Assembly: GCA_016125165.1 (NCBI GenBank) | Contig: WGMH01000008.1 | Span: 1 to 64,000, forward strand | DNA length: 64,000 bases | Source: Alphaproteobacteria bacterium | GTDB taxonomy: Bacteria; Pseudomonadota; Alphaproteobacteria; Micropepsales; Micropepsaceae | Direction: 5' to 3' | Shown: positions 16,499 through 52,745 of the stretch, piece by piece | Numbering within the stretch: the stretch's first letter is position 1 | Layout: each line of letters begins with the position of its first letter | Translations under genes and position numbers: made by a program | The notes under the pieces: model-generated | The model's database searches: none | The model's input: the letters and a program-made list of their open reading frames with translations, nothing else | What the model was told of the DNA's origin: nothing

Positions 16499-17716
16499 AT
16501 GACGCCAGATATTCCCCCCGAATTCCGCCTGCTGGTGGCGGCTTCTCGCTGGCCGCACGATGCACGCAGCATTACGGCGGTGAAGGCTGCAGCGGACGAA
16601 GCCATCGACTGGGAGCATTTTCTGCGCGTGGCGACACGGCATCGCGTCGCGTCTCTTGCATATTCCGGCCTGAAAAGTGCGCAGGTTACGCCGCCGCCGG
16701 AAATCGCGAAATTGCTCGAAGCCTTCTCGATCCGGCAGGCGGGTCACAGCATGCATTTGGCCCATGAGGCAATGCGCATTCGCCGGGCGCTGGAAGAAAA
16801 ATCCATCGAACCGCTTTTCGTGAAAGGCGCCACGCTCGGAATGCTGGCGTATGGATCGATGGTGCTGAAGCAGGGCCGCGACATCGATGTTCTGGTGAAG
16901 CGCAGTGAGGTTTTCCCGACCCTCGAAATCCTGCGCGGCTTCGGTTACGAGCCAATCCACTTTGTTCCATCCGAACCCTGGCAGATTGAACCATGGATGG
17001 ACATGACAAAAGATCTGGAGGTCGTGGACCGATCGCGCGGCATGTCGGTGGAAATTCACTGGAAGCTGTCGGACAACAACGCTTTCTCGCGCACGCTGGA
17101 AAAACACTATGCCGCGCGCGAGATATCGCTCGGCTCCGGCATGAGCCTGCGCACGCTGGATCAACGGATTTTCGTGATCTATCTGTGCATACACGGCGCA
17201 CGTCACGCGTGGTTCCGGCTCAAATGGTCTGCGGATCTGGCGGCCATCTTCGCGCGCGCCACGCCTGCCGAACTTCAGGACTACGCCGCGTTCGCCAAGG
17301 AATGCCGAATGGAAGGGTGCTTCGCGCAGGCCATTCTGCTATGCGACAGCCTGTTTGAACTCGAAAATGTGCGGTCGATGGCAGAGCATTTCCGCAAGTC
17401 GCGCCGCTACAGGCTTTTGGAACGCATCGCCCTGCATATGATGACCTTGGGCAAGGGCGCGACCGAGGTGTGGGACGTTCGCTATGGCTCGGTGCCGCAA
17501 ATCTTTTCGCAGTTCATCGTTGGTGATGATGCCTCCTATTTCTGGAATGAGGTGCGTTCGCGCTTTGTGACAATTACGGACGTGGAAGAGCTGCGGTTGC
17601 CGCGCCACCTGACCTTCCTGTATCCGCTTCTGCATATACCGCTGGCAATCGGCCGCCGACTGCGCGACCGTGGCTTCATGCAACGCAGCGCACCCGTGGA
17701 AGCCAAGAAGACCTGA
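16499..17716 (+). CDS. Nucleotidyltransferase family protein (PF14907 type)
   Basis: 405 residues. LFVKGATLG (106-114) and KQGRDIDVLVK (124-134), with the paired acidic residues D128 and D130, are the nucleotidyltransferase core; VEIHWKL near 184-190 gives the third acidic residue. This is the uncharacterised nucleotidyltransferase family that often lies in exopolysaccharide and RiPP clusters, including lasso-peptide clusters with HPr-kinase-like tailoring enzymes. It converges on an ABC exporter with only four bases between the stops, and the lasso-type B2 gene is two genes further. A role as a tailoring enzyme is inferred from this setting alone; its target is unknown. Confidence 0.82.
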   Translation: MTPDIPPEFRLLVAASRWPHDARSITAVKAAADEAIDWEHFLRVATRHRVASLAYSGLKSAQVTPPPEIAKLLEAFSIRQAGHSMHLAHEAMRIRRALEEKSIEPLFVKGATLGMLAYGSMVLKQGRDIDVLVKRSEVFPTLEILRGFGYEPIHFVPSEPWQIEPWMDMTKDLEVVDRSRGMSVEIHWKLSDNNAFSRTLEKHYAAREISLGSGMSLRTLDQRIFVIYLCIHGARHAWFRLKWSADLAAIFARATPAELQDYAAFAKECRMEGCFAQAILLCDSLFELENVRSMAEHFRKSRRYRLLERIALHMMTLGKGATEVWDVRYGSVPQIFSQFIVGDDASYFWNEVRSRFVTITDVEELRLPRHLTFLYPLLHIPLAIGRRLRDRGFMQRSAPVEAKKT

Positions 17717-17720
17717 ACGG

Positions 17721-19487
17721 TCACGACTTGCGGACGGTTACGCGACCCGATTCAAATTCGAGCACCATATCGCAGCGCGCCAGACTTTCCGGGCGATGGG
17801 TTATCATCACGATGGTCATGCGCGGTTCCAATGCAAGCAGCCGATCCAGAATCTGCCGCTCCGCAGTCTGATCGAGCGCATTCATCGCTTCATCGAGGAT
17901 AAGAAATTTCGGCTTGCGCAGAATGGCGCGCGCCAGCGCGATGCGCTGACGTTCCCCGCCGGACACCGTGGAACCACGCTCTCCCAATTCCGCATCGAGG
18001 CCCAGGAGATCACGGCGTATGATCGCATCAGCGCCAGCAAGCGCGAGCGCATCCCACATTTCCACATCACTCGCATCGGGCCGGACCCACGTCAGATTGC
18101 GACGGATCGTATCGTGGAAAAGGAATGGATCCTGCGAGACATAAGACAATCCTGCCCGAAATCCATCCAGCGCCTCGGCTTTTAGCGCGCGCGCACCTAG
18201 CAGAATCTCGCCGCCATCTGGTTCGATCAACCCGACCAGAAGATCGGCAAAGGTGGTCTTTCCGGAGCCGGATTGTCCTGTGATACCAACAAATGCTCTT
18301 GGCGCAATCGTGAGCGAGACATCCTGCACGCCAGCGTGATGTTCGCCACCTTCATCCGTGTGCCGGTACGACACCGCGCGGAATGTTACCGGCTCCTGCG
18401 CCGAGGCAGGCACGTTTGCATTGGCCGAATGTGGCGCATCGGACCGCAATTCTGCTTCAAGCTGCTTGATCTTGTCGAAGGCCGGCAGGCTGTTTGCGAG
18501 TTGCTGCAGGCCTTGCTGGATCTGTGTGAGAGGTCCAGCCGTGCGTGCCAGAATTACAAGGAATGCCACCAGCACGGCAGGCTGCGTGTCCAGCAGGCCG
18601 ACACCGATCAGGATAATCGCGGCGGCGGCAAAGGCTGGTGCAATGTTGAGGATCAGGCGGCTGCGGCTTTGTTCCAGAACATACTCGATCTGCCTCTGTG
18701 CCATCGCATGAAGTGTCTGATGGGCTTCGTCGACGAAGCGCGACTGCAGATTTTGGCTCACCGCCAGCTTAAGGCCGCCCAGGAATTGGGTCGTCGTATC
18801 CATCAGGCGCAGGGATGCCGTCGAGAAAATTGCGCCGAGCGAATGGGCCCGCGCCAATGTGCGCGTGATGCCAAATATCCCGATCGCGAGCAACACTATG
18901 GCCAATCCGGTGAGTGCGGGAGACAGAACCCAGGCCAGGATCACCTGAGCAATCAGCAGCACCACCGAGATGGTACATTGCAGCGCAACGGCGGTTGCCA
19001 TTGCCACATTGCCGATTTCCCCGCCCATGGCATGAACGACACGCGCATGCCGAAGGCCCAGAACGCGGTCCCAGCTTGCCGAAGCCAGCGAGCGCATGAG
19101 CTGCTCGCGCTGGGCCTCCAGAAAATACACACGCAGCTGCGTGATCCGGACATCGCGCCAAAGCATCACAAGTCCGCGAAGAATCATCAATGCGATGAAG
19201 ATCGAAAACAGCAGTGCAAGCTGGCCGAGATGGCTGTGAATTCCGGTATGCGCCAAGGCGTCCTGCACGTGATGATGTAGTGCATCGCCCCCGACAGCTG
19301 GCGTCAGAACCACGCTGAGAAGCGGAATGAGCAGAACGATGCCAATGCTTTCCAGAACGGCGCCTACGGCCATGAGCAATCCGGCCCACACGATCTTCCT
19401 GCCGGAGAATTCAACGAAGCCACGTATAAAGGTCACGGCGGAATGCCGAAGCGACGACGCGGCTTCAGGGACTTGGGGCGCGGACAC
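17721..19487 (-). CDS. ABC exporter (fused membrane and ATPase domains), RiPP-type
   Basis: 588 residues from a GTG at 19487 that has AAGGAA five bases upstream; the open frame before it lacks family signal. Six membrane helices occupy roughly residues 25-320. The ATPase has Walker A GQSGSGKTT, signature VSGGERQR, Walker B FLILDEAMNALD with the catalytic Glu, and the H-loop ITHRPES. There is no N-terminal C39 peptidase. It follows the B2 gene by 35 bases on the same strand, as McjD-type exporters do in lasso-peptide operons, so it probably exports a modified peptide. A general lipid or polysaccharide flippase is the alternative. Confidence 0.85.
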   Translation of the reverse strand: MSAPQVPEAASSLRHSAVTFIRGFVEFSGRKIVWAGLLMAVGAVLESIGIVLLIPLLSVVLTPAVGGDALHHHVQDALAHTGIHSHLGQLALLFSIFIALMILRGLVMLWRDVRITQLRVYFLEAQREQLMRSLASASWDRVLGLRHARVVHAMGGEIGNVAMATAVALQCTISVVLLIAQVILAWVLSPALTGLAIVLLAIGIFGITRTLARAHSLGAIFSTASLRLMDTTTQFLGGLKLAVSQNLQSRFVDEAHQTLHAMAQRQIEYVLEQSRSRLILNIAPAFAAAAIILIGVGLLDTQPAVLVAFLVILARTAGPLTQIQQGLQQLANSLPAFDKIKQLEAELRSDAPHSANANVPASAQEPVTFRAVSYRHTDEGGEHHAGVQDVSLTIAPRAFVGITGQSGSGKTTFADLLVGLIEPDGGEILLGARALKAEALDGFRAGLSYVSQDPFLFHDTIRRNLTWVRPDASDVEMWDALALAGADAIIRRDLLGLDAELGERGSTVSGGERQRIALARAILRKPKFLILDEAMNALDQTAERQILDRLLALEPRMTIVMITHRPESLARCDMVLEFESGRVTVRKS

Positions 19488-19522: not shown

Positions 19523-19972
19523 TCACGCTGGCGTGCCGGGGAAGGACGCCAAGAGACGGAAACGGCTTTCCGATTCGCAGCCGATGATCGGTACATCGCC
19601 ATCCTTGATCCAGACATGGGCCAAAAGTCCCTCGTCGGGATCCAGCACGGCGCCATAATGCATGATTGACGGAACGCCCCGGCGACGGATCATCCAATGC
19701 ACGCTGAGGCCTCGTTCAAAGCACATGGCGCGCCACGGTACGCGGTCTGCCCATGCCACCACGGCCCAGCGGATGCGGCGGATTTCGGGCAGGCGTTCCT
19801 CCTGTGGCAACAGCCGGCCGGTCGGCGCGCTCGCGACCTGCGCAATGCGCTTGAACGGCACCAGCCGAATTGCGATGGAGGCGAGCACGAGCACGAATCC
19901 GGCCTCCGCCAGCAGCGCTTTGTCGCGCCAGGAGGAACGTCCAATCGTTTTCAACCCGCTGAGAATGCGCAT
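19523..19972 (-). CDS. Lasso-peptide biosynthesis B2 protein (transglutaminase-like leader protease)
   Basis: 149 residues from the ATG at 19972; a GTG at 20011 would add 13 residues. A hydrophobic segment (FVLVLASIAIRLVPF) leads into the PF13471 core: WADRVPWRAMCFERGL with the candidate nucleophile Cys84, VHWMIRRRGVPS, and LLAHVWIKDG with the candidate His119. These are the signatures of lasso B2 proteins, which remove the leader peptide after a PqqD-like B1 protein binds it. The third triad residue is not clear: the expected Asp region reads IIGCESES. No B1, cyclase or precursor gene is adjacent. It heads an operon with the ABC exporter. Confidence 0.85.
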   Translation of the reverse strand: MRILSGLKTIGRSSWRDKALLAEAGFVLVLASIAIRLVPFKRIAQVASAPTGRLLPQEERLPEIRRIRWAVVAWADRVPWRAMCFERGLSVHWMIRRRGVPSIMHYGAVLDPDEGLLAHVWIKDGDVPIIGCESESRFRLLASFPGTPA

Positions 19973-49555: not shown

Positions 49556-49984
49556 CTATTCGTTTTCCGGAATCGCGGGAGCCCCCTCCCCCTCTGGCCG
49601 GGCGAGATCCACCCGCTCCACGCGGATGACCTGCCGCTTCTCGTCGCTGAGGGCGCCGCGCAGCCGCCCAATGGTTTCAGCGATGCGGATGCCCATGTCC
49701 GTGGCGCTTTCGAAATTGCGCAGACATTGGGTGTGCTGGGTTCCATAGGCAGGCGTGGCCAGAATGCTGGCGCTGCCGCGTGCGATCTCGCGGGCCTCGA
49801 CCAGCAGGGCCTTCAGCACGGCTTCGATCTCCACATCCGCGAGCACATCGACCTCGGTGCGGAAGGCGGTGAGGTCGATGTTGGGGATGACGACCGGTTC
49901 GGGCGGCGGCTTGCGATAGCCGGAGGCGATCTCCTCCTGCATCCAGTCGGGGAGCGATTCCAGGGATTCCGGGCTTGAGGGCAT
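49556..49984 (-). CDS. Hypothetical protein, partner of the phage-like remnant
   Basis: 142 residues from the ATG at 49984. No family recognised. It has a Pro-rich segment (YRKPPPEPVVIPNID), a long helical middle (VEIEAVLKALLVEAREIARG) and an acidic, Pro-ending tail. It sits 11 bases upstream of the remnant on the same strand, an order seen in prophage-like patches. The predicted protein is soluble. Confidence 0.5.
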   Translation of the reverse strand: MPSSPESLESLPDWMQEEIASGYRKPPPEPVVIPNIDLTAFRTEVDVLADVEIEAVLKALLVEAREIARGSASILATPAYGTQHTQCLRNFESATDMGIRIAETIGRLRGALSDEKRQVIRVERVDLARPEGEGAPAIPENE

Positions 49985-50493
49985 GGCGGCTTGTCTCCAT
50001 TTGGGGGTTGGAGACGGATATGGGGAGAGTTGATGTAGGATTAAAGGCACATTTGAGGAAATATTCTTACTCTCTGAAGCCGCGGCGCTACCGCACGAAA
50101 GGATGATTCACGCGGAGGCCGCGGAGGCGCAGAGCAGTGCGGGAATGTGGAACGTGAACGATCAGCCGCTTCGATATTTGTGCCGGATTCGCAGGGATGG
50201 CCCGCTGTTGGGAACCATGACATCTCATCTTGTGAAGTGCGAGACGATGATGTTCTCGCATTCAATGCGAGCGGCTTCGCACATTCAAATACAACCACAG
50301 AGCATGGTCACACGCGCGCACACATGCCTGACGTGTTGAAGCGCGTGTGTTCTGAAGCATCGGAGCCACAGCCCACATCATTCAATATGCAACTACCCAT
50401 TTTGGGCCGGGTTACTCTGGCCGCCCTTTGCTGCGAACCTCCAAGATGCGCGGTGCGTCTTGCGCGCATTGTGGCGGCATGAGGGGAACGAGC
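49985..50493. other. Non-coding stretch upstream of the precursor gene
   Basis: About 500 bases without a gene I can support. It holds a small perfect inverted repeat TCGCATT-C-AATGCGA (50256-50270) and a longer hairpin with CACACGCGC (50309-50317) and GCGCGTGTG (50341-50349). Short frames here show no family signal. The hairpins could affect transcription toward the downstream 50-codon gene. Confidence 0.5.
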
Positions 50494-50646
50494 ATGGGCG
50501 TGAATGGAGATCGTGCGGCAAGCAACACGGACGAATCGGGCAAGCCACGCGAAGATTGGATGACACCGAAACTCACGCGGCTCGATCTGGGCCTCGCCAT
50601 GGCGGACCATGGGGAAACTCACTTTGACGGTCTCGGATTTTCCTGA
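50494..50646 (+). CDS. Candidate RiPP precursor peptide with a W-x2-P-x-L leader motif
   Basis: 50 residues. The ATG has AGGGG seven bases upstream. The N-terminal ~20 residues are polar; then D-W22-M-T-P25-K-L27-T-R-L follows, matching the Y/W-x2-P-x-L leader signature that PqqD-like recognition proteins bind in lasso and related precursors. The C-terminal end ADHGETHFDGLGFS is short, Gly-rich and has Asp/Glu/His residues, so it could hold the core. Leader and core boundaries are not clear. No modification gene is adjacent; a lasso-type B2 and exporter lie 30 kb away. The gene is convergent on pbpC with five bases between. Confidence 0.6.
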   Translation: MGVNGDRAASNTDESGKPREDWMTPKLTRLDLGLAMADHGETHFDGLGFS

Positions 50647-50651
50647 TGCCG

Positions 50652-52745
50652 CTATTCCTTCAGCCGTTTGAACCGCACGCTGGAAATGGCGCTGCGGCCT
50701 TGTGCGTCAACCACGGTGATGCGTGAGAGGCCTTCGCCGGTGGGTGTGAACAGCACCGGCTGAAAGCGATCGAAACTGCCGAGGAGCGCGCCATCCACCA
50801 GCCAGGTGAGCGGACCGCGCCCGCCATCGGCTTTCAGCTGGATGGATTTCTCGTTCGCGTTTGGCGCGGGCAATGGCAGCACCGCGCCATTGGGCGGAAA
50901 GGCGATGGTGGGCGGCGGCACCGATGTTTCTGCGGTTTGCGCGGGGGCCTGTTCGCGCGTGAAAAGCCGCATGCCGGCGGGAAGCTGATCGGTGGCGCGC
51001 GCCATGATCGCGCCTTGCGGAATGCGCGGATCGGGCCGCCGGTCGCGCGGCAGTAGCCCAAACATTTTCAGAAGAATGGGGGCGGCGGTTTCGCGGCCGA
51101 TGTGATCGGCGCGCGGCGCGCCGTCGGGGCGGCCCGTCCAGACGCCGACGGTGTAATCGTTCGAGAAGCCGACCGACCATGCATCGCGAAAGCCATAGGA
51201 CGTGCCGGTTTTGAACGCGATGGTGCGGCGGCGCGAAAGCCCCTGCCCCATCGCCCAGCCTTCGGGCAGCGACACGCCGGAGAGAATGTCGCGCAGATAG
51301 TACGCCGCGACCGCGCCGAAGAGGCGATGCGGCGGCGCCTGTTTCTCATCTTCCAGATAGCGGAGCGCGTGCGCGGTGCCGCCATTGGCGATGCCGGTGT
51401 AGAGCATGGTGATATCGGCCAGATCGATGCCGAGACCGCCGAGCGCGACCGGCAGGCTTGGGCCTTCGTCGGCTTTCGGAAACGAGATCGCGGCCCCGGC
51501 ATTGGAAAGCGCATTGGTAAAACGCAATGGCCCGACGCGATCCAGCACCATCACGGCGGGAATGTTGAGCGACATGCGCAGCGCATCGCGCGCGGTGACC
51601 GCGCCCTGGAACGCGCCATCGAAATCGCGCGGCGCATAATCGCCGAAGGTGACGGGCTCGTCGGTCATCAGCGTTTGCGGATGCAGGATAAGATCGTCGA
51701 AGGCGAGACCATAGATGACCGGCTTGAGCGCGGAGCCGGGCGAGCGCGCGCGATTGGCAAGATCGATCTGGCCTTCCTTGCCCCAATAATCTGTGCCGCC
51801 GACATAGGCGCGCACGCCTTGGGTCTGGTTGTCCACCACGACGATGGCGAGCGCGCCGCCATCATCGGAATAGGCGCTTTCCTGCGCGGCGAGTCGCTCG
51901 GCGGCTTCCTGCAACGACGCATCAAGCGTGGTGACGAGGCGCGTCGTGCCCTTGTGTTGCAGCACAAGACGCTGCGCCAGATGCGGCGCGGTGAGCGGCA
52001 TCGCCTGACGCGCGAAGGCGACGCCGAGTTTCTTTGCAACATTCGCATCGCTCGCGGTAACGACGCCTTCGCTCACCATGCGATCCAGGACCTTGTCGCG
52101 GCCCTTTTTCGCGCGGATGGCATGGCGATCCGGCCGCTGGCGTTCGGGCGATTGCGGCAGCGCGACCAGAAGCGCCGCTTGCGACAGATCGATGGCATCG
52201 GGGTTCTTGCCGAAATAGGCAAGCGAGGCCGCGCGCACGCCTTCGAGATTGCCGCCGAAGGGCGCGAGCGTGAGATAGATCGAAAGGATCTCGTCTTTCG
52301 AATAGCGCTCTTCGAGCTGGATGGCGCGCACCATCTGGAACAACTTGGTACCGATGCTGCGCGGGCGCGGCTCCAGCAATCGCGCCGCCTGCATGGAGAG
52401 CGTGGACGCTCCGGAAACAATATGCCCGGCACTCACATATTGCAGCGCCGCGCGGAAGACGGCGGCGGCATCGACGCCGAAATGGGAATCGAAGCGCTTG
52501 TCTTCATAGGCCTTGAGGAGTTCGAGATAGCGCGCGTTCACATCGCGCGGATTGGTTTTGAGCCGCCAATAGCCGGTATCGGTGAGAAAGGCGCGCAGGA
52601 GCACGCCATTCCTGTCCACCACCTCGGGCGAGACATGGGTGTAGCGCGTCATGTCCGGCGGATTCGCGACATCCGCCGTGGCAAGCGCAAGCACGACGCC
52701 GAGCGCTGCAAAGACGATAGGGATGAGGCGATGCGACGAAAACAT
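50652..52745 (-). CDS. pbpC: Penicillin-binding protein 1C
   Basis: 697 residues from the ATG at 52745. An N-terminal hydrophobic anchor is followed by a glycosyltransferase 51 domain (AYEDKRFDSHFGVD with the catalytic Glu, SGASTLSMQAARLL) and a transpeptidase domain with SPGSALKP, SLN and KTGTSYGFRDAW. The C-terminal ~90 residues are the BiPBP-type extension. It polymerises and cross-links peptidoglycan. Downstream of the alpha-2-macroglobulin gene on the same strand, as in the classical yfhM-pbpC pair; a repeat lies between them. Confidence 0.93.
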   Translation of the reverse strand: MFSSHRLIPIVFAALGVVLALATADVANPPDMTRYTHVSPEVVDRNGVLLRAFLTDTGYWRLKTNPRDVNARYLELLKAYEDKRFDSHFGVDAAAVFRAALQYVSAGHIVSGASTLSMQAARLLEPRPRSIGTKLFQMVRAIQLEERYSKDEILSIYLTLAPFGGNLEGVRAASLAYFGKNPDAIDLSQAALLVALPQSPERQRPDRHAIRAKKGRDKVLDRMVSEGVVTASDANVAKKLGVAFARQAMPLTAPHLAQRLVLQHKGTTRLVTTLDASLQEAAERLAAQESAYSDDGGALAIVVVDNQTQGVRAYVGGTDYWGKEGQIDLANRARSPGSALKPVIYGLAFDDLILHPQTLMTDEPVTFGDYAPRDFDGAFQGAVTARDALRMSLNIPAVMVLDRVGPLRFTNALSNAGAAISFPKADEGPSLPVALGGLGIDLADITMLYTGIANGGTAHALRYLEDEKQAPPHRLFGAVAAYYLRDILSGVSLPEGWAMGQGLSRRRTIAFKTGTSYGFRDAWSVGFSNDYTVGVWTGRPDGAPRADHIGRETAAPILLKMFGLLPRDRRPDPRIPQGAIMARATDQLPAGMRLFTREQAPAQTAETSVPPPTIAFPPNGAVLPLPAPNANEKSIQLKADGGRGPLTWLVDGALLGSFDRFQPVLFTPTGEGLSRITVVDAQGRSAISSVRFKRLKE

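Follow-up and report, generated by a model that had tools for sequence, protein, structure and literature searches.

Does a 50-codon gene with no modification enzyme at its side encode a lasso-type RiPP precursor and, if so, which enzymes might serve it? The question is raised by a frame at positions 50494–50646 (plus strand) of the window, as we call the whole 64,000-nucleotide stretch of alphaproteobacterial DNA analysed here. The initial annotation, made from the sequence alone, described a 50-codon gene with a ribosome binding site, a W22/P25/L27 motif and no adjacent modification enzyme, took it as a candidate for an orphan lasso-type RiPP precursor, and named, by inference, a B2 protease and an ABC exporter at 17.7–20.0 kb as its natural partners.

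A short gene without adjoining modification enzymes

The frame is translated into MGVNGDRAASNTDESGKPREDWMTPKLTRLDLGLAMADHGETHFDGLGFS, followed by the stop codon, and contains W22, P25 and L27. A ribosome binding site, GAGGGG, is read at 50481–50486 (plus strand), 7 nt before the ATG, and our in-house hexamer gene caller chose the same start. The leader carries W22-M-T-P25-K-L27 (50557–50574), the predicted PqqD/RRE-binding motif, and the gene closes with a conserved tail, A37–S50 (ADHGETHFDGLGFS, 50602–50643), which we propose as the core; its boundary is inferred from the spacing in the family and is not shown. Within the tail, D45 (codon 50626–50628) is the inferred candidate for the acid of a ring with A37, and the sequence ends in Ser50 (codon 50641–50643). 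Five base pairs separate the stop codon from that of a convergent gene for a pbpC-like penicillin-binding protein (50652–52745, minus strand; named by reading, without a family search), which lies outside the pathway. Upstream, on the opposite strand, are an MFS-like gene and a 142-aa gene, likewise named by reading; the latter, of unknown kind, occupies 49556–49984 (minus strand) between the MFS-like gene and the precursor, and is not called at the corresponding site of a related genome, G021.

No modification enzyme adjoins the precursor, and no JmjC, 2OG-Fe(II) or TPR/hydrolase partner was seen next to it. Both sequence readings of the initial annotation, the gene with its ribosome binding site and motif and the absence of an adjacent enzyme, are upheld. 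A Pfam scan of the precursor (P0001) gave no match at E ≤ 0.01; in an NCBIfam scan of nine peptides, eight were without match at E ≤ 5 and the ninth (L036:7977–8174) had a weak off-family match (E 0.032). The sequence itself, an orthologue, codon comparison and family profiles, all described below, show that the 50-codon frame is a genuine gene.

Purifying selection on the tail

A single-sequence search of 195 genomes, including its own, returned one clear short-frame match, in G021 (E 3.5e-6); the next best, in G191 (E 0.0034), is a frame that was left unread. A two-row profile run over the 96 genomes of the bacterial family found no second orthologue. Scanning a named genome collection with the precursor gave contig JAFEEQ010000008.1 of a metagenome-assembled genome as the sole match. 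The G021 relative lies at the same site, convergent with pbpC, and is 42% identical overall with a near-identical tail: the last 14 residues share 12 identities, the tails ADHGETHFDGLGFS and ADHGESHFDGIGFS (G021) differing only by T/S and L/I exchanges, and the leader has diverged except for W-x2-P, here in the form W-x2-P-x-M, and a few other residues. The last 16 codons comprise 8 identical ones, 5 with synonymous and 3 with non-synonymous differences (pN 0.11, pS 0.58), and random placement of an equal number of changes gave so few residue changes in only 45 of 20,000 trials. The remainder of the gene shows pN 0.65 and pS 0.77, with non-synonymous differences in 27 of 34 codons. The tail is thus under purifying selection between the two species, whereas the leader has drifted outside W, P and a handful of residues, a pattern that fits the tail as core.

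At the level of the site, occurrence is patchy. A pbpC match is present in 64 of the 96 genomes, and a motif-bearing peptide was found at 2 of the 30 pbpC loci returned, those of the own genome and G021; this survey was a motif scan, from which a relative without the motif would escape. Lack of conservation of the frame or motif in relatives would have refuted the original claim; tested here, this outcome was not met, with the qualification that the direct orthologue at the pbpC site is confined to one other species. The peptide might alternatively be a small regulatory or structural product of the pbpC/MFS neighbourhood and no RiPP precursor at all, in line with its position between these genes in both species. 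However, the remaining 28 pbpC loci have no such peptide, and its family relatives adjoin quite different genes, which makes this reading highly improbable.

A dispersed precursor family

Two profiles were built from this gene and cluster-borne precursors: A3, from seven precursors, and A4, of 40 rows. With A3, the own genome and G021 each give 11 matches and G046 gives 12; most are short frames lying far apart, and all 34 keep W/Y-x2-P, the spacing and the terminal Ser. We fetched 41 A3 matches, namely the remaining 29 of these three genomes and 12 chosen from others; 37 carry the signature and four lack it. With A4 at E ≤ 0.02, matches occur in 10 of the 96 genomes: 11 in the own genome, 16 in G021, 15 in G046, four in G009, three in G028, two each in G027, G052 and G066, and one each in G087 and G003. 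The G003 match, inside a frame of 321 codons, is attributed to chance. Of 11 further A4 matches that were read, eight carry the signature, which brings it to 16/16 in G021 and 14/15 in G046; in the own genome all 11 profile matches have W-x2-P, the spacing and the terminal Ser. Nine of these 11, the precursor at 50494–50646 among them, have no maturation gene nearby. Weak A3 and A4 matches in other genomes were read only in part. Three weak matches of the earlier two-row profile (G052 C10, G028 C1 and G046 C1:4516488) later proved to be family members; its best weak match, L040 (E 0.0036), runs antisense to an isoleucyl-tRNA synthetase-like frame and was rejected as chance. Collectively, the gene, the family to which it belongs and the genome-wide dispersal of that family are shown.

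Across 385 sampled genomes of the class, two from outside the bacterial family have a match at E ≤ 1e-4 (L260 and L261), a lower bound in that at most 20 candidates were scored per genome. A sulfotransferase-like gene adjoins the L260 precursor, with a cyclase-like match in the locus, and that of L261 stands next to an apparent enoyl-CoA hydratase gene.

All nine genomes whose A4 matches (E ≤ 0.02) are genuine carry PF14907, a domain present in 22 of the 96 (Fisher p 3.8e-7). This association is partly circular, because PF14907 genes led to some of the precursors that seeded the profile; when the five seed genomes are left out, matches remain in 5 of 17 genomes with the domain against 0 of 74 without it (p 1.3e-4; counting the G003 match raises this to 7e-4).

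A conserved signature with diverse cores

The signature was derived from 55 retained sequences. Dropped beforehand were six without the signature (L225, L226, L227, L229, L275 and L277), L276 (no in-frame W-x2-P), L154 (with Ala as its last residue) and, from the sulfotransferase-type clusters, the precursors with Y- or W-x2-P (L036, L080 and L081). All 55 end in Ser; the first motif residue is W in 52 and Y in three; the distance from W to the end is 27–31 in 54; W+13 is A or S in 49, W+14 is E or Q in 43, and an acid stands at W+22 or W+23 in 52, its full range in the alignment being W+22 to W+25. The last 14 residues form 52 distinct tails. The terminal Ser is no artefact of the search, because 29 of the 33 fetched matches whose alignment stops before the last profile position still end in it (23 of 23 in the own genome, G021 and G046), the four exceptions being dropped rows. 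The cluster-borne candidate L154, with its Ala, indicates that peptides of the wider group need not end in Ser.

Three side observations concern the cores. A near-invariant core end, GPEILILLS or close to it, is joined to differing leaders in more than one genome (L145, L197, L200, L203, L208, L210, L218 and L271), in contrast to the otherwise variable cores. L276 (G009, C67, about 62.2 kb) has the GPEILILLS tail beside a PqqD match without an in-frame W-x2-P, possibly through a frameshift or sequencing error. In G052, L223 and L274 have different leaders and identical final 20 residues (LATEDAELRRHGSPDLTVNS), apparently a recent duplication of the core.

We defined a strict signature as W/Y-x2-P, terminal Ser, a W-to-end distance of 27–30, A/S at W+13 and an acid at W+22/23. 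It occurs twice in the window, in the precursor at 50494–50646 and in one Tyr-type match on the minus strand; neither 100 dinucleotide-shuffled versions of the window (6.4 Mb) nor 100,557 real bases from 28 pbpC loci of other genomes contain it. This bears on the most sceptical reading, that the gene is a chance open frame. In its favour, the hexamer caller gives the 50 codons only a weak coding score (3.5); against it stand the conservation of the tail, the family matches and the absence of strict signatures from the shuffles, so that chance can be practically ruled out.

Related precursors within complete lasso-type clusters

The initial annotation had proposed looking for relatives of the gene beside PqqD, cyclase, HPr-kinase-like or nucleotidyltransferase genes. 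Such neighbours, and B2 and ABC genes as well, are found in related genomes. In G046 (L147), a precursor ending in WQRPALRKLDARDAELTGLNLTDNAVFS adjoins genes in the order AsnS-HprK-PqqD-B2-NTase-ABC, and similar precursors lie among such lasso genes in other arrangements at L145, L151 and L153. G021 has the same enzyme order as L147 at a contig end (L079), where the cyclase frame is short (554 aa); its precursor, we infer, would lie past the contig end. Kinase-like genes are named by similarity, that of L079 scoring 29.3 bits in Pfam, under the cut-off of 33.3. G021 has seven PF00733 matches, of which one is of the 50% kind described below, five align at 26–34% and one is unread. With the same precursor type beside lasso enzymes in relatives and 11 family members in its own genome, the claim of an orphan lasso-type RiPP precursor is supported.

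Lasso-type enzymes at separate loci of the same genome

Every lasso enzyme type (B1, B2, cyclase, kinase-like, NTase and ABC) is encoded in the own genome, at separate loci. The window itself holds an NTP_transf_5 nucleotidyltransferase, a PsmN-like candidate (16499–17716, plus strand; PF14907 E 1.1e-45; 33% and 38% identical to the cluster genes of G021 and G046, respectively), an ABC exporter of the D-type of lasso clusters (17721–19487, minus strand; ABC_tran; 47% identity to the cluster ABC genes of G021 and G046) and a B2-type Transglut_core3 leader peptidase (19523–19972, minus strand; PF13471; 33–35% to the cluster B2 of G021 and G046). On this contig, C11, the NTase-ABC-B2 group lies 30.5 kb from the precursor at 50.5 kb, and a PqqD-B2-kinase group follows at 80.7–84.6 kb, about 30 kb away on the other side. 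Altogether there are three B2-like genes (C11 at 19.5 kb, in the window, C11 at 83.3 kb and C2 at 779.5 kb) and three PqqD genes (C2, C8 and C11 at 80.8 kb). Kinase-like genes on C11 (about 84 kb), C8 and C2, named solely by their 33–47% similarity to cluster kinases, show H, GxxGxGKS and DD motifs. Of five Asn_synthase matches, two, on contig C7, belong to one subfamily; they are about 50–53% identical to the cyclases of L147, L145 and L079, and about 28% to the cyclase on the own C2. Directly before the C7 cyclases (L077) stand two more precursors with W-x2-P-x-L and C-terminal Ser. Two cyclases of the C7 subfamily thus face 11 precursors in this genome, and one was found for 16 in G021.

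The cognate enzymes remain unidentified because the genome offers three candidates each for PqqD and B2 and no fewer than three for the kinase. The proposal that the B2 protease and ABC exporter at 17.7–20.0 kb are the natural partners is accordingly upheld only in part: they are plausible and not unique, given the three B2 genes and the location of the best cyclases on another contig. As sole partners the enzymes at 16.5–20.0 kb are not favoured; this stretch has no cyclase.

Two further loci deserve mention in their own right. A second lasso-like system on C2 (L036:4981–11616) comprises cyclase, PqqD, B2, kinase-like and sulfotransferase-like genes and several Y-x2-P precursors, three of which end in GPS or GPT; its cyclase is about 28% identical to the C7 type. 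The PqqD, B2 and kinase-like genes of C11 lie within an apparent glycosyltransferase/sugar-nucleotide locus (L034:14371–19748 and L035:2–5737, at 78–90 kb) that includes a nucleotidyltransferase-aminotransferase fusion.

Genomic context of the dispersed precursors

Orphan flanks were tested with 15 marker proteins. At the own loci L193–L198 (eight precursors), these revealed no lasso enzyme within about 2.6–3.3 kb, apart from a generic 32% ABC match in L197; lasso-enzyme genes are present in the flanks of L203, L208–L212 and L220. One neighbour recurs at six loci, a protein of 345–459 aa with 34–64% mutual identity that appears to join TPR and alpha/beta-hydrolase parts (L194:3494–4756, L202:1513–2892, L204:1778–3055, L215:2919–4232, L216:3229–4266 and L224:2804–4117). 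Five of these genes are convergent with the precursor within 8 bp, and that of L202 is divergent at 87 bp. In the model of the L194 protein (mean pLDDT 82, pTM 0.81), a TPR-like array of helices precedes an alpha/beta hydrolase that has a GxSxxG elbow; PDB matches of the model are partial (OGT-like TPR, esterases and prolyl tripeptidyl aminopeptidase), and Pfam gives these proteins at best weak TPR or hydrolase scores. It is conceivable that they are cognate isopeptidases or esterases. As a separate observation, several cores adjoining these genes have TG-x2-S-x-A/T-D in common. JmjC_2 proteins are encoded beside L203, L218 and L222, and a TPR/2OG-Fe(II) protein beside L201; we tentatively consider these oxygenases as candidates for private hydroxylation.

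Two other regularities were sought and rejected. A shared upstream motif of the precursors is unconvincing, the top 7-mer occurring in seven sequences against a maximum of six in 50 shuffles; and targeting to the 3′ ends of convergent genes, with 14 of 25 convergent cases (among 32 precursors) within 20 bp, is ordinary against a background of 38/57.

The scattered genes could be relics of lasso clusters that have lost their enzymes and are retained by chance. Consistent with this, most have no enzyme nearby, the orthologue at the pbpC site is patchy (2/30 loci), for 7 of the 29 members read in the own genome, G021 and G046 the chosen start is without a 4-base Shine-Dalgarno string, and L271 has no ATG or GTG ahead of the motif except a GTG immediately before W. 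On the other side, all 34 A3 matches of the three genomes keep motif, spacing and terminal Ser, the 29 members read start with ATG (23) or GTG (6), the tail is under purifying selection between two species, the marker search found no enzyme remnants in most flanks, and every enzyme type persists elsewhere in the genome. We consider decay unlikely.

Proposed maturation in trans

In our preferred reading, the precursor at 50494–50646 is most probably an orphan lasso-type RiPP precursor, one member of a dispersed family whose maturation in trans would fall to a few enzymes that all members share. The individual steps are inferred; neither transcript nor peptide nor mass is known. W22-x2-P25-x-L27 would be bound by a stand-alone PqqD protein (B1/RRE), and an HPr-kinase-like enzyme would phosphorylate the C-terminal Ser50, to whose phosphate the NTP_transf_5 protein may attach a sugar. 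The B2 protease would then cleave between residues 36 and 37, with Ala35 as position −2, the Asn-synthetase-like cyclase would link the new N-terminus, A37, to D45 (core position 9) in a macrolactam that leaves the tail GLGFS, and the ABC exporter would secrete the product.

The boundary in this scheme rests on taking W+13 as position −2, from which it is inferred that cores begin at W+15 with the acid at position 8 or 9, here a core of A37–S50 and a ring of A37–D45; D45 is position 9 only given this unproven core start. Several points speak against the choice. In published clusters YxxPxL occupies −17 to −12 (PMC10368454), which puts the core start at W+17 rather than W+15; under the proposed cleavage the penultimate leader residue is Ala35, the usual Thr being absent, and Thr(−2) is reported as replaceable by Ile or Val (PMC10368454); and core residue 1 varies across the family. 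Nor is the precursor clustered with lasso genes, although clustering is a usual trait of lasso systems and no chemical requirement; B1 (PqqD), B2 and the Asn-synthetase-like cyclase are all in the genome, none adjoins the precursor, and their action on it is not shown. In favour of the tailoring steps, a kinase (PadeK) phosphorylates the C-terminal Ser of its precursor, a residue that shows extreme conservation among clusters with a kinase gene, and PsmN attaches a hexose to the phospho-Ser (PMC9266682, PMC8498205). The features of a PadeK-type system are present here, in Ser50 and the genome's own HPr-kinase-like genes (by similarity), as is the prochlorosin-like feature of numerous unlinked precursors that belong to one family and differ in their cores (11, 16 and 14 in three genomes).

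A closer rival accepts processing by RRE, cyclase and kinase and holds that the product is a branched or linear phosphopeptide and no threaded lasso. Sequence alone does not reveal threading, the alignment leaves ring size and core start variable (acid from W+22 to W+25), and the core would have just 14 residues; however, the enzymes of the complete clusters are the lasso set, and the acid at W+22/23 in 52 of 55 sequences fits core position 8 or 9. This alternative remains possible.

Returning to the lasso reading, a bolder form of it can be stated, which we consider slightly less likely than not: one or two substrate-tolerant cyclases, with a small set of B1, B2, kinase and nucleotidyltransferase proteins, may turn 11–16 scattered precursors with different cores into C-terminally phosphorylated (or phosphoglycosylated) lasso peptides, a natural combinatorial library that would be to lasso chemistry what the prochlorosins are to lanthipeptides, some precursors having private tailoring partners (JmjC-type hydroxylases, or the TPR and alpha/beta-hydrolase protein). 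The scattered arrangement would allow one enzyme set to yield many different products. If this is true, the sequence tolerance of lasso enzymes becomes directly testable with native substrates, and a cyclase set that naturally takes a dozen cores would offer a ready-made scaffold for lasso libraries. The recurrent C-terminal Ser predicts phospho- or phosphoglyco-lasso products, which can be checked by mass spectrometry.

Comparison with known systems

The open-access literature searched yielded no description of lasso precursors that are dispersed or orphaned; subscription papers were mostly outside this search, and a 2026 review of interlocked peptides (PMC13352647) was consulted by key word only. 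RiPP and lasso mining mostly looks beside cyclases, so most of the present precursors would be missed.

The closest known systems are those of the paeninodin type (PadeA/PadeK; SyanK) and pseudomycoidin (PsmK/PsmN), which share with our family the aromatic-x2-P-x-L leader and the C-terminal Ser, and with its complete clusters the B1 (PqqD-like), B2, C, K and N genes and the exporter D. Unlike theirs, the present precursors are mostly stand-alone and scattered, at 11, 16 and 14 in three genomes; they mostly have Trp for Tyr, Ala or Ser for Thr at the proposed −2 position and a core start at W+15, and their products are unknown. BsfA, a lasso precursor with Ile(−2) whose cluster has K and N genes, shows that Thr(−2) is not obligatory; it differs from the present precursor in being clustered, in its Gly1-Asp8 ring and in a kinase that targets Ser3 (PMC10368454). 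The genomic arrangement has its counterparts outside the lasso peptides. For the prochlorosins, one enzyme, ProcM, likewise serves many precursors with diverse cores (about 30 ProcA), some encoded away from the modification genes (PMC11667668, PMC4603692), yet the chemistry is that of lanthipeptides, the enzymes are unrelated, and substrate tolerance is shown for ProcM and not here. In the heterocycloanthracins the precursor gene is likewise apart from the cyclodehydratase in most clusters (PMC4603692), whereas the chemistry is that of azoles and the same paper does not describe a multi-precursor repertoire. What appears new here, with the prochlorosins and heterocycloanthracins as the known parallels, is the occurrence of lasso-type enzymes together with a scattered repertoire of many precursors.
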